NCBI RefSeq assembly: GCF_900102785.1
Contig: NZ_FNGC01000010.1
Span: forward strand, 1 to 64,000
DNA from: Arthrobacter sp. ok362
Lineage (GTDB): Bacteria; Actinomycetota; Actinomycetes; Actinomycetales; Micrococcaceae
DNA: 64,000 bases
Direction: 5' to 3'
Position numbers and translations under genes: made by a program. Within the stretch, counting starts at the first letter, position 1, and every line of letters starts with the position of its first letter. The notes beneath the pieces are model-generated. The model did no database searches. It was not told where the DNA came from and worked only from the letters and a program-made list of their open reading frames with translations. This document shows, in pieces, positions 4,018-37,719 of this stretch.

Positions 4018-5724
4018 TTGACCAACACCGCCACGCTGGCAACCCTGTCCGGTTCCGACCTCGCCGCCGACCCCAACTGGTGGCGCCAGGCCTCGGTGTA
4101 CCAGATCTACCCGCGGAGCTTTTCCGATTCCAACGGTGACGGCCTGGGCGATATCAAGGGCATCACCGCCAAGGTCCCGTACTTGAAGGAACTCGGGATC
4201 GACGCCGTCTGGCTCTCCCCGTTCTACCCCTCGGCGCTGGCCGACGGCGGCTACGACGTCGACGACTACCGCGACGTGGACCCCAAGCTCGGCACCCTGG
4301 CGGACTTCGACGAGATGTCCGCCGCGCTGCACGCTGCCGGCATCAAGCTGATCGCCGACATCGTCCCCAACCACTCCTCGAACCGGCACGAATGGTTCCA
4401 GGAGGCCTTGGCCTCCCCGCGCGGATCCGCCGCCCGCGAGCGCTACATCTTCCGCGACGGCCTCGGCGAGAACGGCGAGCTCCCGCCCTCGGACTGGGAG
4501 TCCGTCTTCGGCGGCCCTGCCTGGGAGCGGATCACCGAGCCCGACGGCACGCCCGGCCAGTGGTACATGCACATCTTCGCCAAGGAACAGCCGGACCTGA
4601 ACTGGGCCAACCGCGAAATCCGTGACGACTTCCTCAAGACGCTCCGCTTCTGGTCGGACCGCGGCGTGGACGGCTTCCGCGTCGACGTCGCCCACGCGCT
4701 GACCAAGGACCTCACCGAGCCGCTCATCTCCAAGGTGGAGCTCAGCGCCGCCAACACCGGCACGGACGGATTCCCCGACGGCTCGCACCCGTTCTGGGAC
4801 CGCGACGAAGTCCACGAGGTCTACGCCGAATGGCGCGAGGTGTTCAACGAGTACAACCCGCCGCGCACCGCCGTCGCCGAGGCTTGGGTGCACGCCACCC
4901 GGCGCGCCCGCTACGCCAGCCCGGAGGGCCTGGGCCAGGCGTTCAACTTCGACCTCCTGCAGGCCGACTTCGACGCCGGCGAGTTCCGCGAAATCATTGC
5001 CCGGAACCTCGCCGAGGCCACGGAATCCGGGGCCTCCTCCACCTGGGTCTTCTCCAACCACGACGTCGTCCGCCACGCCACCCGCTACGGCCTGCCCCGG
5101 GGCGGCGGCAAGCACGCCCAGGGCCAGGACGGTAAGGGCTGGCTGCTGGCCGGCGCCCCGGTCGAAGAGCTCGACGTCGAGCTCGGCCTGCGCCGGGCCC
5201 GCGCCGCCACCTTGCTGATGCTGGCCCTGCCGGGTTCCGCCTACCTCTACCAGGGCGAGGAACTGGGCCTGCAGGAAGTCGCGGAGATCCCCGACGCCGA
5301 GCGCCAGGACCCCACCTTCTTCCGGAACAAGGGCGTAGAGATCGGCCGCGACGGCTGCCGCGTGCCGCTGCCGTGGGCTCCGGAGGGCACTTCGTTCGGC
5401 TTCGGCGCCGGCGCGGCTCACCTGCCCCAGCCGGCCTGGTTCAGCCGCTACGCCGTGGCAGCCCAGGACGGCGTGGAAGGCTCCACCCTGGAGCTCTACC
5501 GCAAGGCCCTGAGGCTGCGCCGCGAACTGCAGACCTCGGAGGAACTGCAATGGCAGGAGTCCGGCAGCGCCGACGTCCTGCGCTTCAGCCGTCCCGGCGG
5601 CTGGCAGACGGTGACCAACTTTGGCGACGCACCGGTTGACCTGCCTGCCGGCGAGGTGCTGGTCAGCAGCGGCCCGCTGGCGGGTGGACAGCTGCCGGCC
5701 AACACCACCGTCTGGCTGCGGTGA
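4018..5724 (+). CDS. Glycoside hydrolase family 13, alpha-glucosidase type
   Basis: The protein has 568 residues and starts at TTG 4018, 7 nt after GAAGGA. The (beta/alpha)8 amylase fold is evident from WWRQASVYQIYPRSF near the N-terminus and the conserved region ADIVPNHSSNRHEWF. The expected catalytic triad is present: nucleophile Asp223 in GFRVDVAHAL, acid/base Glu288 in VAEAW, and Asp349 in FSNHD. There is no signal peptide, so it should act in the cytoplasm on imported maltose, isomaltose, sucrose-like or trehalose-derived oligosaccharides. The region II motif fits the actinobacterial alpha-glucosidase branch, but exact linkage specificity cannot be read. It overlaps the next gene by 4 bp (GTGA), so the two form an operon, probably under the ROK repressor. 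Confidence 0.9.
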   Translation: MTNTATLATLSGSDLAADPNWWRQASVYQIYPRSFSDSNGDGLGDIKGITAKVPYLKELGIDAVWLSPFYPSALADGGYDVDDYRDVDPKLGTLADFDEMSAALHAAGIKLIADIVPNHSSNRHEWFQEALASPRGSAARERYIFRDGLGENGELPPSDWESVFGGPAWERITEPDGTPGQWYMHIFAKEQPDLNWANREIRDDFLKTLRFWSDRGVDGFRVDVAHALTKDLTEPLISKVELSAANTGTDGFPDGSHPFWDRDEVHEVYAEWREVFNEYNPPRTAVAEAWVHATRRARYASPEGLGQAFNFDLLQADFDAGEFREIIARNLAEATESGASSTWVFSNHDVVRHATRYGLPRGGGKHAQGQDGKGWLLAGAPVEELDVELGLRRARAATLLMLALPGSAYLYQGEELGLQEVAEIPDAERQDPTFFRNKGVEIGRDGCRVPLPWAPEGTSFGFGAGAAHLPQPAWFSRYAVAAQDGVEGSTLELYRKALRLRRELQTSEELQWQESGSADVLRFSRPGGWQTVTNFGDAPVDLPAGEVLVSSGPLAGGQLPANTTVWLR

Positions 5725-14738: not shown

Positions 14739-14791
14739 GAAAAGGCCGGTTCTCTAGGAAAGCCGGATCTTGAGGAAGGCCGGTTCTCTAG
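14737..14791. repeat. Degenerate short tandem repeat after murB
   Basis: Three imperfect units of about 17-21 bp (AGGAAAAGGCCGGTTCTCT and two variants) begin at the murB stop codon. They fill most of the gap to the convergent gene. Confidence 0.6.
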
Positions 14792-14805
14792 GCGGCCGGG
14801 GGCGC

Positions 14806-15324
14806 CTACCGGTCCGTGTGGCGGGGGGCCACCTTGCTGAACAGCATGAAGGTGAAACCGGAGGCCGCGGCCCCGAGCAGGAAGACCTGGCAGAACGCCA
14901 CGGACTGAACGCTGGGCCCGCTCTGCAGCACCAGTCCGGCGCACGCAAACGCCACGGCGCCGGCGAGAAACGCCAGGGAGCCGAGCAGGAAGGCCTGTAC
15001 GGTGGCCGGAAATTCGCCGGCGTAGTCGAGCTGGAGCTCCCGGCCCCGCGGGGCAATGCTGCCGCGCTCCACGCCCGCCTGCGTCCGTGCCTGAGACCGT
15101 GCCCGCGGCTGCAGCGCAGCGGCCGTGACGAAGCTGCCCACGGACACTGCCATGCACAAACCGGCAACCAACTGCAGGGTGCTCATGATGGGCGAGAGCC
15201 GGGTGCCGCTGGCGATGGCGACGGCGAGCCCGGCAGCCATGCCGGCGGCGCTGGAGGCCCAGCCCAGCAGGGCCAGCTTCCGGCACAGGGGCCGCAGCAG
15301 CGGCCACACCTCACTCATAGTCAT
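14806..15324 (-). CDS. Hypothetical four-helix membrane protein
   Basis: The protein has 172 residues. Four hydrophobic segments are seen (about residues 15-40, 47-68, 108-130, 140-163) with a polar, Arg/Gln-rich loop between the second and third (ALQPRARSQARTQAGVERGS). I do not recognise a family. The start ATG 15324 is supported by a leaderless box TACCCT exactly 6 nt upstream. It is convergent with murB. Confidence 0.65.
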   Translation of the reverse strand: MTMSEVWPLLRPLCRKLALLGWASSAAGMAAGLAVAIASGTRLSPIMSTLQLVAGLCMAVSVGSFVTAAALQPRARSQARTQAGVERGSIAPRGRELQLDYAGEFPATVQAFLLGSLAFLAGAVAFACAGLVLQSGPSVQSVAFCQVFLLGAAASGFTFMLFSKVAPRHTDR

Positions 15325-15330
15325 GCATCA

Positions 15331-15336
15331 AGGGTA
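15331..15336 (-). promoter_or_regulatory. -10 box TACCCT, leaderless start
   Basis: Read on the minus strand, TACCCT lies exactly 6 nt before ATG 15324. Confidence 0.55.
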
Positions 15337-15442
15337 AAGAGGCCCGCTGGACGGCGGCTGGGAAGAGCCGGGCAACAGCCCGACAGCCAGCACAGGCAGG
15401 GGTCACCAGCGTCCTGCCATGGGCGTCTCACGATAGGCGTCC

Positions 15443-15448
15443 TACCAT
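15443..15448 (+). promoter_or_regulatory. -10 box TACCAT before an out-of-frame ATG
   Basis: TACCAT is followed by exactly 6 nt and ATG 15455, the arrangement of the other leaderless genes. The frame from this ATG meets a stop (TGA) after 14 codons because of the G7 tract at 15469-15475. Confidence 0.5.
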
Positions 15449-15463
15449 TGGTCCATGGCAATA

Positions 15464-15516
15464 GTGGCGGGGGGGCAACAGTGGCGGGGGCAACAGTGAC
15501 AGGGGCAACAGTGACG
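15464..15516. repeat. 15-bp tandem repeat with a G7 homopolymer (possible phase-variable tract)
   Basis: Successive units are GTGGC-G7-CAACA (17 bp, 15464-15480), GTGGC-G5-CAACA (15 bp), GTGACAGGGGCAACA (15 bp) and a partial unit. The two extra G in the first unit break the reading frame from ATG 15455 into the winged-helix gene. With five G the frame would read M-A-I-V-A-G-A-T-V-A-G straight into the gene. Confidence 0.7.
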
Positions 15517-16638
15517 GGCATCCGGCTCAGCCCCGGGATCATGGGCAGGCTGCGGCTCGCCGCGCAGGGTTTGCTGGGACCCGGTTTTGAGACCGTCCCG
15601 GAAGCAGCCCGCGCCATGACGGCGATGCAGGCGCAGGACCTTTCGGCCGTTCTCTGGGCTGTCGGCCAGCGCGTTCCGGGTGCCCGCGTTGACGATGTCC
15701 GCGGGGCGCTGGATCGGGCGGAGGTGGTCCGCTCGTGGCCTATGCGCGGCACCCTGCACGTGCTGGCCCCCGAAGATTTGAAGTGGATGCTGGCCATCAC
15801 CTCCGATCGACTGATCCGTGGCATGGCGGGGCGTCACCGAGAGCTGGAGATCGATGCCCGGGACGTGGAAGCAAGCCGTGAGGCAGCCCTGGAACTCGTC
15901 CAAGGTGGAGGATCGGCGACGCGCCAGCAGCTATTCGCAGCTTTTGAGGCTGCGGGCCAGTCCACGGCGGGCCAGCGCGGAATCCACCTGCTGGGGATGC
16001 TGTGCCAGCGGGCCTGGCTGGTCTTGGGACCGACCGCGGGGAGCCAGCAGCTCATCAAAGCCTTTGACGAGTGGATCCCCAAATCCCGCGAACTGGACCG
16101 TGCCGAAGGCATTGCGGAACTGCTGTTGCGGTACATGCTCAGCCACGGCCCGGCCACGGAACGCGACTTCGCGTGGTGGTCGAACACGCCGGTGACAGAG
16201 GTCCGCACCGCCTTGGCTCTGGTGAAGGACCAGCTCGTTGGGCTGGAGTTCGAAGGAGCCACCTATTGGCTGTCGCCGGCCACCGCGGCACTGCTCGAGG
16301 ACGGTGTGCCCGGACAGCGCACCGTGCTGGCCCTGCCAGGGTTCGATGAGTTCCTGCTGGGCTACACGGACCGGTCCCTCGTGCTGCCGCCGGAGCACGC
16401 CGACAAGATCGTCCCGGGCGGCAACGGCGTGTTCAAGAAAACAATCGTCTCGGGCGGTCAAGTGATCGGCACATGGGCGCGGGCGGGCATTGGCAAAACG
16501 GGCACTGGCAAAACGGGCACTGGCAAGGCGGCCGGCGTCGTGCCCGAACCCTTCGACGCTGTTAACGGCCTGCGGCCTGCCGCACAAAAGTCTCTTGAGC
16601 TGCAGGCCGCGAAGTACCGCAGATTCCTTGGTGCCTGA
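15481..16638 (+). CDS. Winged-helix DNA-binding domain protein (HTH_42/YcaQ-like)
   Basis: From GTG 15481 the protein has 385 residues; 15496, 15511 and ATG 15541 are alternative starts. Family features include ARAMTAMQAQDLSAVLWAVGQRV, VVRSWPMRGTLHVLAPEDLKWML, and the later winged-helix stretch LLRYMLSHGPATERDFAWWS. PGFDEFLLGYTDRSLVL, near the C-terminus, is the most conserved part of the family. Relatives include DNA interstrand crosslink glycosylases of the YcaQ/AlkX group, but most members are uncharacterised. Near the C-terminus a 15-bp tandem repeat (about 16486-16530) encodes GIGKTGTGKTGTGK. The most likely native start, ATG 15455, is out of frame in this sequence, so the gene may be phase-variable or misread. 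Confidence 0.8.
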   Translation: MAGATVTGATVTGIRLSPGIMGRLRLAAQGLLGPGFETVPEAARAMTAMQAQDLSAVLWAVGQRVPGARVDDVRGALDRAEVVRSWPMRGTLHVLAPEDLKWMLAITSDRLIRGMAGRHRELEIDARDVEASREAALELVQGGGSATRQQLFAAFEAAGQSTAGQRGIHLLGMLCQRAWLVLGPTAGSQQLIKAFDEWIPKSRELDRAEGIAELLLRYMLSHGPATERDFAWWSNTPVTEVRTALALVKDQLVGLEFEGATYWLSPATAALLEDGVPGQRTVLALPGFDEFLLGYTDRSLVLPPEHADKIVPGGNGVFKKTIVSGGQVIGTWARAGIGKTGTGKTGTGKAAGVVPEPFDAVNGLRPAAQKSLELQAAKYRRFLGA

Positions 16639-30768: not shown

Positions 30769-31223
30769 GCACCGAGTCCCCATTGAGCGGTTCCGCCCCC
30801 AACAACTCCGCCCCCAACAACTCCGCCCCCAACAACTCCGGCGCCGCGCCCGACGACGAGACGCTGGCGCTGGCCCATGTGCTCTTCGACGCGGCCCGCG
30901 AGGGCAACTCCGCGCTGCTGGGCGGCTACCTGGCCGCCGGCGCGCCGGCCACGCTGACCACTTCCTCCGGCGACTCGCTCGTCATGCTGGCGGCCTACCA
31001 CGGTCACGCCGACACCGTTCGGCTGATCCTGGACCACGGCGGAGACGCGAACATGCCCAATGACCGCGGCCAGACGCCGCTGGCCGGTGCTGTCTTCAAG
31101 GGCTACACGGACGTCGCCCGCGAACTCTTGGACGCCGGGGCCGACCCCGACGCCGGCACCCCCACCGCGCGGGCCGCCGCGCAAATGTTCGCCCGCACGG
31201 AGATCCTGTCCCTCCTCAGCTGA
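30765..31223 (+). CDS. Ankyrin-repeat protein
   Basis: The protein has 152 residues. After a Ser/Asn/Pro-rich N-terminus (NNSAP repeated through a 15-bp tandem repeat at 30801-30840) come about three ankyrin repeats: LFDAAREGNSALLGGYLAAGAPA, GDSLVMLAAYHGHADTVRLILDHGGDAN and GQTPLAGAVFKGYTDVARELLDAGADPD. It is likely a cytoplasmic binding partner. It overlaps ygfZ by 4 bp, so a supporting role for that protein is possible. Confidence 0.88.
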   Translation: MSTESPLSGSAPNNSAPNNSAPNNSGAAPDDETLALAHVLFDAAREGNSALLGGYLAAGAPATLTTSSGDSLVMLAAYHGHADTVRLILDHGGDANMPNDRGQTPLAGAVFKGYTDVARELLDAGADPDAGTPTARAAAQMFARTEILSLLS

Positions 31224-36165: not shown

Positions 36166-37719
36166 TCAGTTGCCTTCCTGGATGGTCACGTTGCTGACGG
36201 TGCCGGAGATCTTCAGGACCAGCCGGGCGCCCGGCTTCGAGGTGTTGTAGTCGCTTTGCTGCTTCGTCATGCCGCCGTGGTCCTGGTTGCCGTCGTGGAG
36301 GTTGCCCATGGTCATGTCCGCCTGGACCTGTACGGGGACCGCGGTGGGGATGACGACGGTGAGGTTGCTGGCCGTCGCGTCGATCGGAACAACGACGTCG
36401 GAGCCCAGGGGCGGATTCAGTGCCAGCTTGGTCAGGTCCACGGTTCCGGCGCCGCCGGTGATCTCGAAGCCGCTGCGGGCCTGTTCAATGCTCGACGGCG
36501 TCCAATCGGCGTTCTGGAAGCGGAACCGGTCACCGTGCGGGACCACGCTGAAGATTGCGCCGATCAGCAGGGCCACGACCGCGAAGAAGCCCAGGATTCC
36601 GGAGGTCCGGCCCCGCAATCCTGCGAACAGGATTCCGAGACCCAGGATGGCCGCACCGATGGCCCAGACCAGCGCGTTGCCGGCATCGCCGAGATCGATC
36701 ACGTTGGCGGCGTCGAGGGCCTTGATGCCGCCGCCCACCAGGAGGGCGGAGCCGACGGTAATGGCGACGGCCGGAGTGCCGGGGCCAAGGTTGCGCGGCG
36801 CGGCGGGAGGGGGTGGTGTGGCCCCGGACCCCGGGCCATAGCCGCCGGGGGGAACAGGGCCGGGCGGAACAGGGCCGGACGGCGGGGGCGGACCCCAGGC
36901 CGGGCCGGCGCCCTGCGGGTAGCTGGCGGCGGATTGCTGCTCAGTGCCAGTGGAGGAAGTGCCGGTGCGGGAGCTGCCCGCAAAAGTCGCGGCGCCGGCT
37001 GGGCTGCTGGACTCGTAACGCGATGGCATGGGAGGGGCTCCGTTCCGGATCTTATTGCGCTGGGTCAGGTAGTAGACGAGGTAGATGGCGCCGCCCACCC
37101 AGAAGACAGTCCAGACGAAGGCGCCAAAGCCGAAGCGGTCCCAGCCCCAGACACCGGTGCCCAGGCTGGGGAAACCGATAACCGAGGTGATGAGGGCGCC
37201 GGTCATGCCAGCCGTCCACCGCCCTGCGGCGGCCTCCTGGACGTGAATGCGGCCGTCAGGTTCGGGCAGCAGTGCCCAGGCGAGACCGTAGGCGAGAACG
37301 CCAATTCCAGCGAAAACGGTCAGGACGATCAGGACGCCGCGAATGATCAGGGGGTCGACGCCGAGCCGGTGGGCTATGCCGCTGGCCACGCCGCCGATCC
37401 AGCGGTCGCGTCCGCGGTAGATCCCCTGGCTGCGGATCCAGTCGAAGAAATTCTGGGTTTCTCGGCCGGGCAACGGTCCCGTCAGGTCGCCGGGCGGGTA
37501 AAGCGGTGGCGGCTCCGTCGGCGGGGGGCTGACCGGCCCGGAGCTGGCAGCCGGGGCGGCGGGCTGGGCTGTGCCTGGACGTTCGGTGTCCGGACCTTCT
37601 GTGTCCGGGCGTTCTGGGTCTGGACGTTCTGAGTCTGGATGTTCTGGGTCTAGTCGGTCGGTGGCTGGCCGGTCTGCGGAGGCCTGGCCTTCATCGGGGT
37701 GCGGAGTGTGCGGGTTCAT
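36166..37719 (-). CDS. PspC-domain protein with LiaF-like C-terminal domain
   Basis: From ATG 37719 (GGGAAGGA upstream) the protein has 517 residues. The cytoplasmic N-terminus is a Pro/Asp/Glu-rich tract with 5-residue repeats (DSERP, DPERP, DTEGP, DTERP; 15-bp repeats at about 37590-37665). A PspC domain follows (YRGRDRWIGGVASGIAHRLGVDPLIIRGVLIVL), then membrane segments, a Gly/Pro-rich linker, and a C-terminal beta-rich part (VDLTKLALNPPLGSDVVVPIDATASNLTVVIP) like the LiaF/DUF2154 domain. In Firmicutes LiaF inhibits the LiaRS system. Here it is divergent from a histidine kinase and response regulator of that kind, so the same role is likely. Confidence 0.85.
   Translation of the reverse strand: MNPHTPHPDEGQASADRPATDRLDPEHPDSERPDPERPDTEGPDTERPGTAQPAAPAASSGPVSPPPTEPPPLYPPGDLTGPLPGRETQNFFDWIRSQGIYRGRDRWIGGVASGIAHRLGVDPLIIRGVLIVLTVFAGIGVLAYGLAWALLPEPDGRIHVQEAAAGRWTAGMTGALITSVIGFPSLGTGVWGWDRFGFGAFVWTVFWVGGAIYLVYYLTQRNKIRNGAPPMPSRYESSSPAGAATFAGSSRTGTSSTGTEQQSAASYPQGAGPAWGPPPPSGPVPPGPVPPGGYGPGSGATPPPPAAPRNLGPGTPAVAITVGSALLVGGGIKALDAANVIDLGDAGNALVWAIGAAILGLGILFAGLRGRTSGILGFFAVVALLIGAIFSVVPHGDRFRFQNADWTPSSIEQARSGFEITGGAGTVDLTKLALNPPLGSDVVVPIDATASNLTVVIPTAVPVQVQADMTMGNLHDGNQDHGGMTKQQSDYNTSKPGARLVLKISGTVSNVTIQEGN

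Follow-up and report, generated by a model that had tools for sequence, protein, structure and literature searches.

A candidate slippage-prone G7 tract behind the leaderless-type start of a predicted AlkZ-like DNA glycosylase gene in an Arthrobacter genome

Among bacteria that lack MutS, phase variation through short G/C runs has been described for Mycobacterium tuberculosis. In its glpK gene a seven-base run varies (PMC11898584), and frameshifts in the tract are reported to inactivate the gene (PMC11898584, PMC10159617). Changes in repeat copy number beside leaderless promoters have been described in the same species at lpdA and cysG (PMC12817950). Outside the actinobacteria, a frameshift in a tract at the 5' end of Listeria monocytogenes inlA leaves a short peptide of 8 aa (PMC2831843), and repeat slippage in the Salmonella DNA-repair gene mutL has been proposed to act as a switch (PMC2955026).

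The locus described here lies in a stretch of 64,000 nucleotides from Arthrobacter sp. ok362 (the window). It shares with the glpK tract the form of a seven-base G/C run within a coding gene, in an actinobacterium with NucS-type repair. Variation at glpK was seen in clinical isolates, whereas the tract in the window is known from one genome and sits inside a tandem repeat at a leaderless-type start. The inlA tract is poly(A), its frameshift frequencies were measured, and the short frame in the window is longer, with 14 residues. The repeats of lpdA and cysG are upstream of the promoters, whereas the present repeat is within the reading frame. Moreover, mutL is a mismatch-repair gene with a changing repeat copy number, whereas here the length of a G run would act on an alkyl-base glycosylase. 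The locus is a single candidate in one draft genome (4.71 Mb, 32 contigs; the window is on contig C7), with the following features.

15443..15448, + strand: -10 element TACCAT, the sole TANNNT within 15380-15541
15455..15457, + strand: ATG, predicted ancestral leaderless start codon from the orthologue comparison, here out of frame with the gene
15455..15499, + strand: 14-codon frame from ATG 15455, with its stop TGA at 15497-15499
15464..15510, + strand: tandem repeat with units of 17, 15 and 15 bp, ahead of the ancestral GTGACGGGC; array absent from the other 85 orthologue rows
15469..15475, + strand: G7 tract, which reads GC[G GGG GGG] C in the frame of ATG 15455, an in-phase slippery-type heptamer
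15496..15499, + strand: GTGA, a GTG in the gene frame overlapping the TGA of the 14-codon frame, spacing -4 nt
15511..16638, + strand: predicted AlkZ-like DNA glycosylase gene (PF06224), taken from the GTG of GTGACGGGC, its ancestral N-terminal stretch
15481 (GTG), 15496 (GTG) and 15541 (ATG), + strand: other in-frame starts of the glycosylase gene
16484..16526, + strand: second 15-bp in-frame array (GTGKT repeats), within a variable linker near the 3' end of the gene (C-terminus of the protein)

The first-pass annotation had described a TACCAT element spaced from ATG 15455 as in other leaderless genes nearby, with a frame that stops after 14 codons. This layout was confirmed. Six bases separate TACCAT from the ATG, and the translation is MAIVAGGQQWRGQQ, 14 residues, followed by TGA. 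Twelve coding-like ORFs in the window have a TANNNT at a spacing of 5-7, 11 of these at 6, compared with 5, 2, 2, 2 and 3 at five control spacings. In mycobacteria, ATG or GTG at the mRNA 5' end is described as necessary and sufficient for leaderless initiation (PMC4633059). From the layout we infer a transcript 5' end at 15455 for the glycosylase gene. The starts at 15324 (- strand) and 15455 (+ strand) form a divergent pair of leaderless-looking genes, 130 bp apart.

The comparison covered 140 loci, which gave 96 rows once identical ones had been merged. The 88 rows of at least 300 bits were kept; the eight left out (<300 bits) are seven distant homologues and L155, from genome G053. A TANNNT-N5-7-RTG start is present ahead of the gene in 86 of the 88 rows, the window included, with a spacing of 6 in 68 rows, 5 in 11 and 7 in 7; the start codon is ATG in 84 and GTG in 2. 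In the remaining two rows, L130 and L132, no such start was found, and for L132 the best match begins at residue 122 and the 5' end is poorly placed. In 85 of the 86 rows the frame of this start runs on into the conserved RLRx block, with the window as the sole exception. As judged from these alignments, the leaderless-type start of the glycosylase gene is ancestral, beyond what chance would give.

The N-terminal part of the orthologues varies in length and sequence. After the -10 element and spacer, the near relatives L015, L020 and L021 read ATG GCA GCA GTG ACG GGC, and L022 reads GTG GCA ACA GTG ACG G. None of the other 85 rows has the array of 15464-15510. Within the first 75 nt, G/C runs reach at most 3 bases in 37 rows, 4 in 36 and 5 in 12, against 7 in the window. 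Over the first 120 nt, Tandem Repeats Finder picked up repeats in three of the 86 rows: the window (L002), L007 and L096, the latter two with units that differ from those of the window. This suggests that the N-terminus of the glycosylase gains repeats now and then. In L007 (genome G020) the N-terminal tandem repeat has a 24-bp unit and the frame is kept. The repeat and G run of the window appear to be new, being seen in this genome alone among the rows compared. In L164 (G204), the start is in frame and a frameshift occurs later in the gene; this may be an assembly error.

The array consists of units at 15464-15480 (17 bp, G7), 15481-15495 (15 bp, G5) and 15496-15510 (15 bp), and GTGACGGGC follows from 15511. 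The last two units share the form GTG-(A/G)C(G/A)-GGG-GCA-ACA. As had been proposed, the frame break is caused by the first unit, which has seven G where its sister unit has five, and a tract of G5 or G8 puts ATG 15455 in frame with the gene. The computed outcomes for other lengths are an open frame with 11 as well, a stop after 13, 14 or 15 codons with 4, 7 or 10, and a stop after 43, 44 or 45 codons with 3, 6 or 9. A mononucleotide run near the start sets the reading frame here, as in contingency loci. On both strands of the window the G7 at 15469-15475 is the only G/C run of at least seven bases, where dinucleotide shuffles gave a mean of 36.6 seven-base G/C matches. Poly(G) and poly(C) runs are reported to be generally underrepresented in prokaryote genomes (PMC2831843).

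The frame of the glycosylase is open far 5' of ATG 15455 (ORF 14770-16638), and the break therefore touches the leaderless start and not the body of the gene. PF06224 (HTH_42) was matched with 226.7 bits against a curated cut-off of 25.9 (E 7.8e-67), while the NCBIfam profiles gave no family match for the glycosylase. Counted from 15499, the domain starts at residue 38, and every alternative in-frame start (GTG 15481, 15496 and 15511, and ATG 15541) precedes it. The protein matched the solved AlkZ structure 5UUJ (E 1.8e-10) with QAQ aligned on QAQ. The motif (Q/H)-aliphatic-Q that defines the AZL subfamily (PMC9040887) is present as this QAQ, which is predicted to be the catalytic motif. By this likeness to the AlkZ/AZL glycosylases, the gene product is a predicted AlkZ-like DNA glycosylase. 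In Streptomyces, AZL genes are described as lying mostly in or near biosynthetic clusters (PMC9040887), whereas the two identified neighbours here are a MurB-type gene and one of semialdehyde-dehydrogenase type. The protein has a match in 194 of 198 genomes of the genus, which in GTDB takes in Arthrobacter, Pseudarthrobacter and Paenarthrobacter. Among the best 80 of 99 loci, its relatives are mostly from Arthrobacter, Pseudarthrobacter and Paenarthrobacter, with weaker ones from Subtercola, Cryobacterium, Micrococcales, Microbacteriaceae and Actinomycetota.

The dN/dS values were 0.18-0.23 in seven pairs with the window gene and 0.11-0.27 in 21 pairs without it. Purifying selection on the glycosylase gene is not visibly relaxed. 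From such ordinary constraint it follows that the break of the frame arose recently, can revert or is bypassed.

The NucS_C domain was found in the genome, as it was in 7 of 14 control genomes, and the profile search gave no match to MutS_V, which was present in 11 of the 14. In Mycobacterium smegmatis NucS is reported not to repair indels of 1-2 bp (PMC11551767), and in mycobacteria the frameshift frequency is described as strongly affected by run length (PMC10159617). With NucS and without a MutS_V match, the genome may, like those of mycobacteria, leave indels of such runs unrepaired, and variation in tract length at the G7 is plausible.

The reading that we prefer, with a probability of about 0.5, is slippage at a hypermutable leaderless start, with reduced and coupled expression in the present state and switching as a possibility. 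The lineage would have gained extra 15-bp units and the G run right after the start codon, for which slipped-strand replication is the simplest route given the form of the repeat. NucS-type repair would leave such indels in place, and the length of the tract would change at a raised frequency. In the G7 state the glycosylase gene would not be dead; its product would be made at a lower level. Ribosomes that terminate at the end of the short frame would reinitiate at GTG 15496, or alternatively initiation could occur internally at GTG 15481, GTG 15511 or ATG 15541.

Coupling of this kind would pass through the GTGA. Among closely spaced ORFs, NTGA is described as by far the commonest spacing, and coupling as most efficient at spacings of -4 to +3 nt (PMC12548453). 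Taken together with leaderless initiation, the overlap allows the G7 state to be read as a short leaderless frame coupled to the gene. Because the TGA that ends the 14 codons shares bases with a GTG of the gene frame, G7 need not be OFF; a frame state that carries its own possible bypass describes it better. The overlap would allow a graded outcome in place of an on/off one. It follows from the repeat sequence itself, and selection for the overlap is not implied. By eye, the G-rich stretch before each GTG bears a loose likeness to a Shine-Dalgarno site.

The locus had been taken for a classical on/off contingency switch. In that form, a selected locus at which the glycosylase is either expressed or absent, so that subpopulations differ in alkylation tolerance, the claim did not hold up well; it is a plausible minority reading that we consider unlikely. 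The tract stands directly after the start codon, G7 is the length of the hypermutable glpK tract of M. tuberculosis (PMC11898584), the genome has a NucS_C domain and no MutS_V match, and the gene is under constraint. Nevertheless, the searches for recurrence speak against it. The pattern TAGGAT-N6-ATG-N0-30-G7 occurred in none of 206 genomes, and TACCAT-N6-ATG-N0-30-G6 in one, the window itself, whose recovery indicates that the search works. With these two -10 variants and 206 genomes the tract was neither kept in relatives nor seen to recur in the genus, and the other 85 rows carry no G/C run longer than five among their first 75 nt. A long-selected design would be expected in some relatives, and a young locus would not. 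The possible bypass at the GTGA also argues against an OFF state. Another G7 near a start, at C19:24421 (L222 1501-1507), separates TATAGAT from the GTG start of a PadR-type regulator. It was considered as a second case and rejected: in closer relatives the GTGTATAG block and the start are conserved with differing bases between them, so that this run looks like a chance product of the spacer.

No second strain of the species was found in DNA and protein searches of the genus (198 / 206 genomes), nor in the wider contig search among its best 80 of 99 loci, from which the genome's own or very near records were possibly omitted. Over the first part of the gene, the closest DNA recovered shares 84-85% identity with the window. 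Among the Arthrobacter papers of one open-licence library on leaderless genes, phase variation and homopolymers, no title or opening of an abstract concerned the locus. If true, a run of this kind in a free-living relative, at a conserved leaderless start that belongs to a DNA-repair gene, would extend what is described for phase variation by short G/C runs.

Similarly doubtful is a plain loss of the old start, in which the frame broke once, no switching occurs and GTG 15496 or 15511 serves as the present start of the gene. An open frame with the conserved domain wholly downstream, orthologue N-termini that vary in length and sequence, and a dN/dS that is not raised are all consistent with such a loss. 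Nevertheless, the only TANNNT in 15380-15541 still points at ATG 15455, and a transcript from it would open with a translatable ATG ahead of the GTGs.

The G7 could also be a sequencing or assembly error in a G-rich repeat whose true tract is in frame. All of the other 85 rows with a leaderless-type start are in frame, and the genome is a 32-contig draft in which contig C3 contains, at 4580-4651 (L221 1501-1572), a run of 72 G that is probably an artefact of sequencing or assembly. In addition, L155 is broken in the same region. Its genome is 79% complete and 6% contaminated, the start is in place, and the frame is lost about 12 codons later, at a G4 that corresponds to G5 in the relative L024. 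Here the poor genome may be in error, or the break may be another of the kind seen in the window. Against an error stand the other long runs of the genome. The seven-base G/C matches number 107 (overlapping), and the 100 listed fall into 31 runs. Apart from the 72 G of C3 there is one run of 11, and the other 29, that of the window among them, have a length of 7. Thirteen of the 30 other tracts of at least seven G/C examined sit within ORFs that score as coding-like (codon score of at least 60) and stay open across the tract; two of these tracts (L207 and L230) are within 20 nt of an uncertain predicted start. Uninterrupted ORFs at these 13 tracts argue against a general assembly failure at such runs. 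Moreover, the array of about 50 bp would fit within single reads, and the nearest lower in-frame tract length is two bases away. The suggestion of a sequencing error in the first-pass annotation is weakened by these runs and is kept here as a rival that we hold to be quite unlikely, as is an assembly error at the G7. The repeat with its G7 is probably a real, slippage-prone site.

An elaboration of slippage at the leaderless start would be a three-state rheostat, with direct translation at G5 and G8, termination and reinitiation through the GTGA at G7, and little or no translation at G6. If true, the cells of a clonal population would differ in their repair of alkylated DNA, which would be high in some, low in others and absent from the rest; we regard this as improbable.

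Programmed -1 frameshifting or transcript slippage on G GGG GGG, restoring the gene frame from ATG 15455, is very improbable: the heptamer at 15469-15475 is in the zero frame and a -1 slip would give GCA ACA GTG GCG in the frame of the gene, but such a phase would arise by chance in one case out of three, the tract is not conserved, and in place of a downstream stimulatory structure no unusual RNA structure was found (z +1.23 for 15455-15600 and +0.60 for 15480-15560).

The second array of the gene, at 16484-16526, was absent from the 10 orthologues whose C-termini were compared. The window as a whole is rich in tandem repeats (21 rows, for example 1-988, 30792-30840 and 37569-37676). In many of its short arrays the period is divisible by three, which does not hold for several of 16-17 bp.
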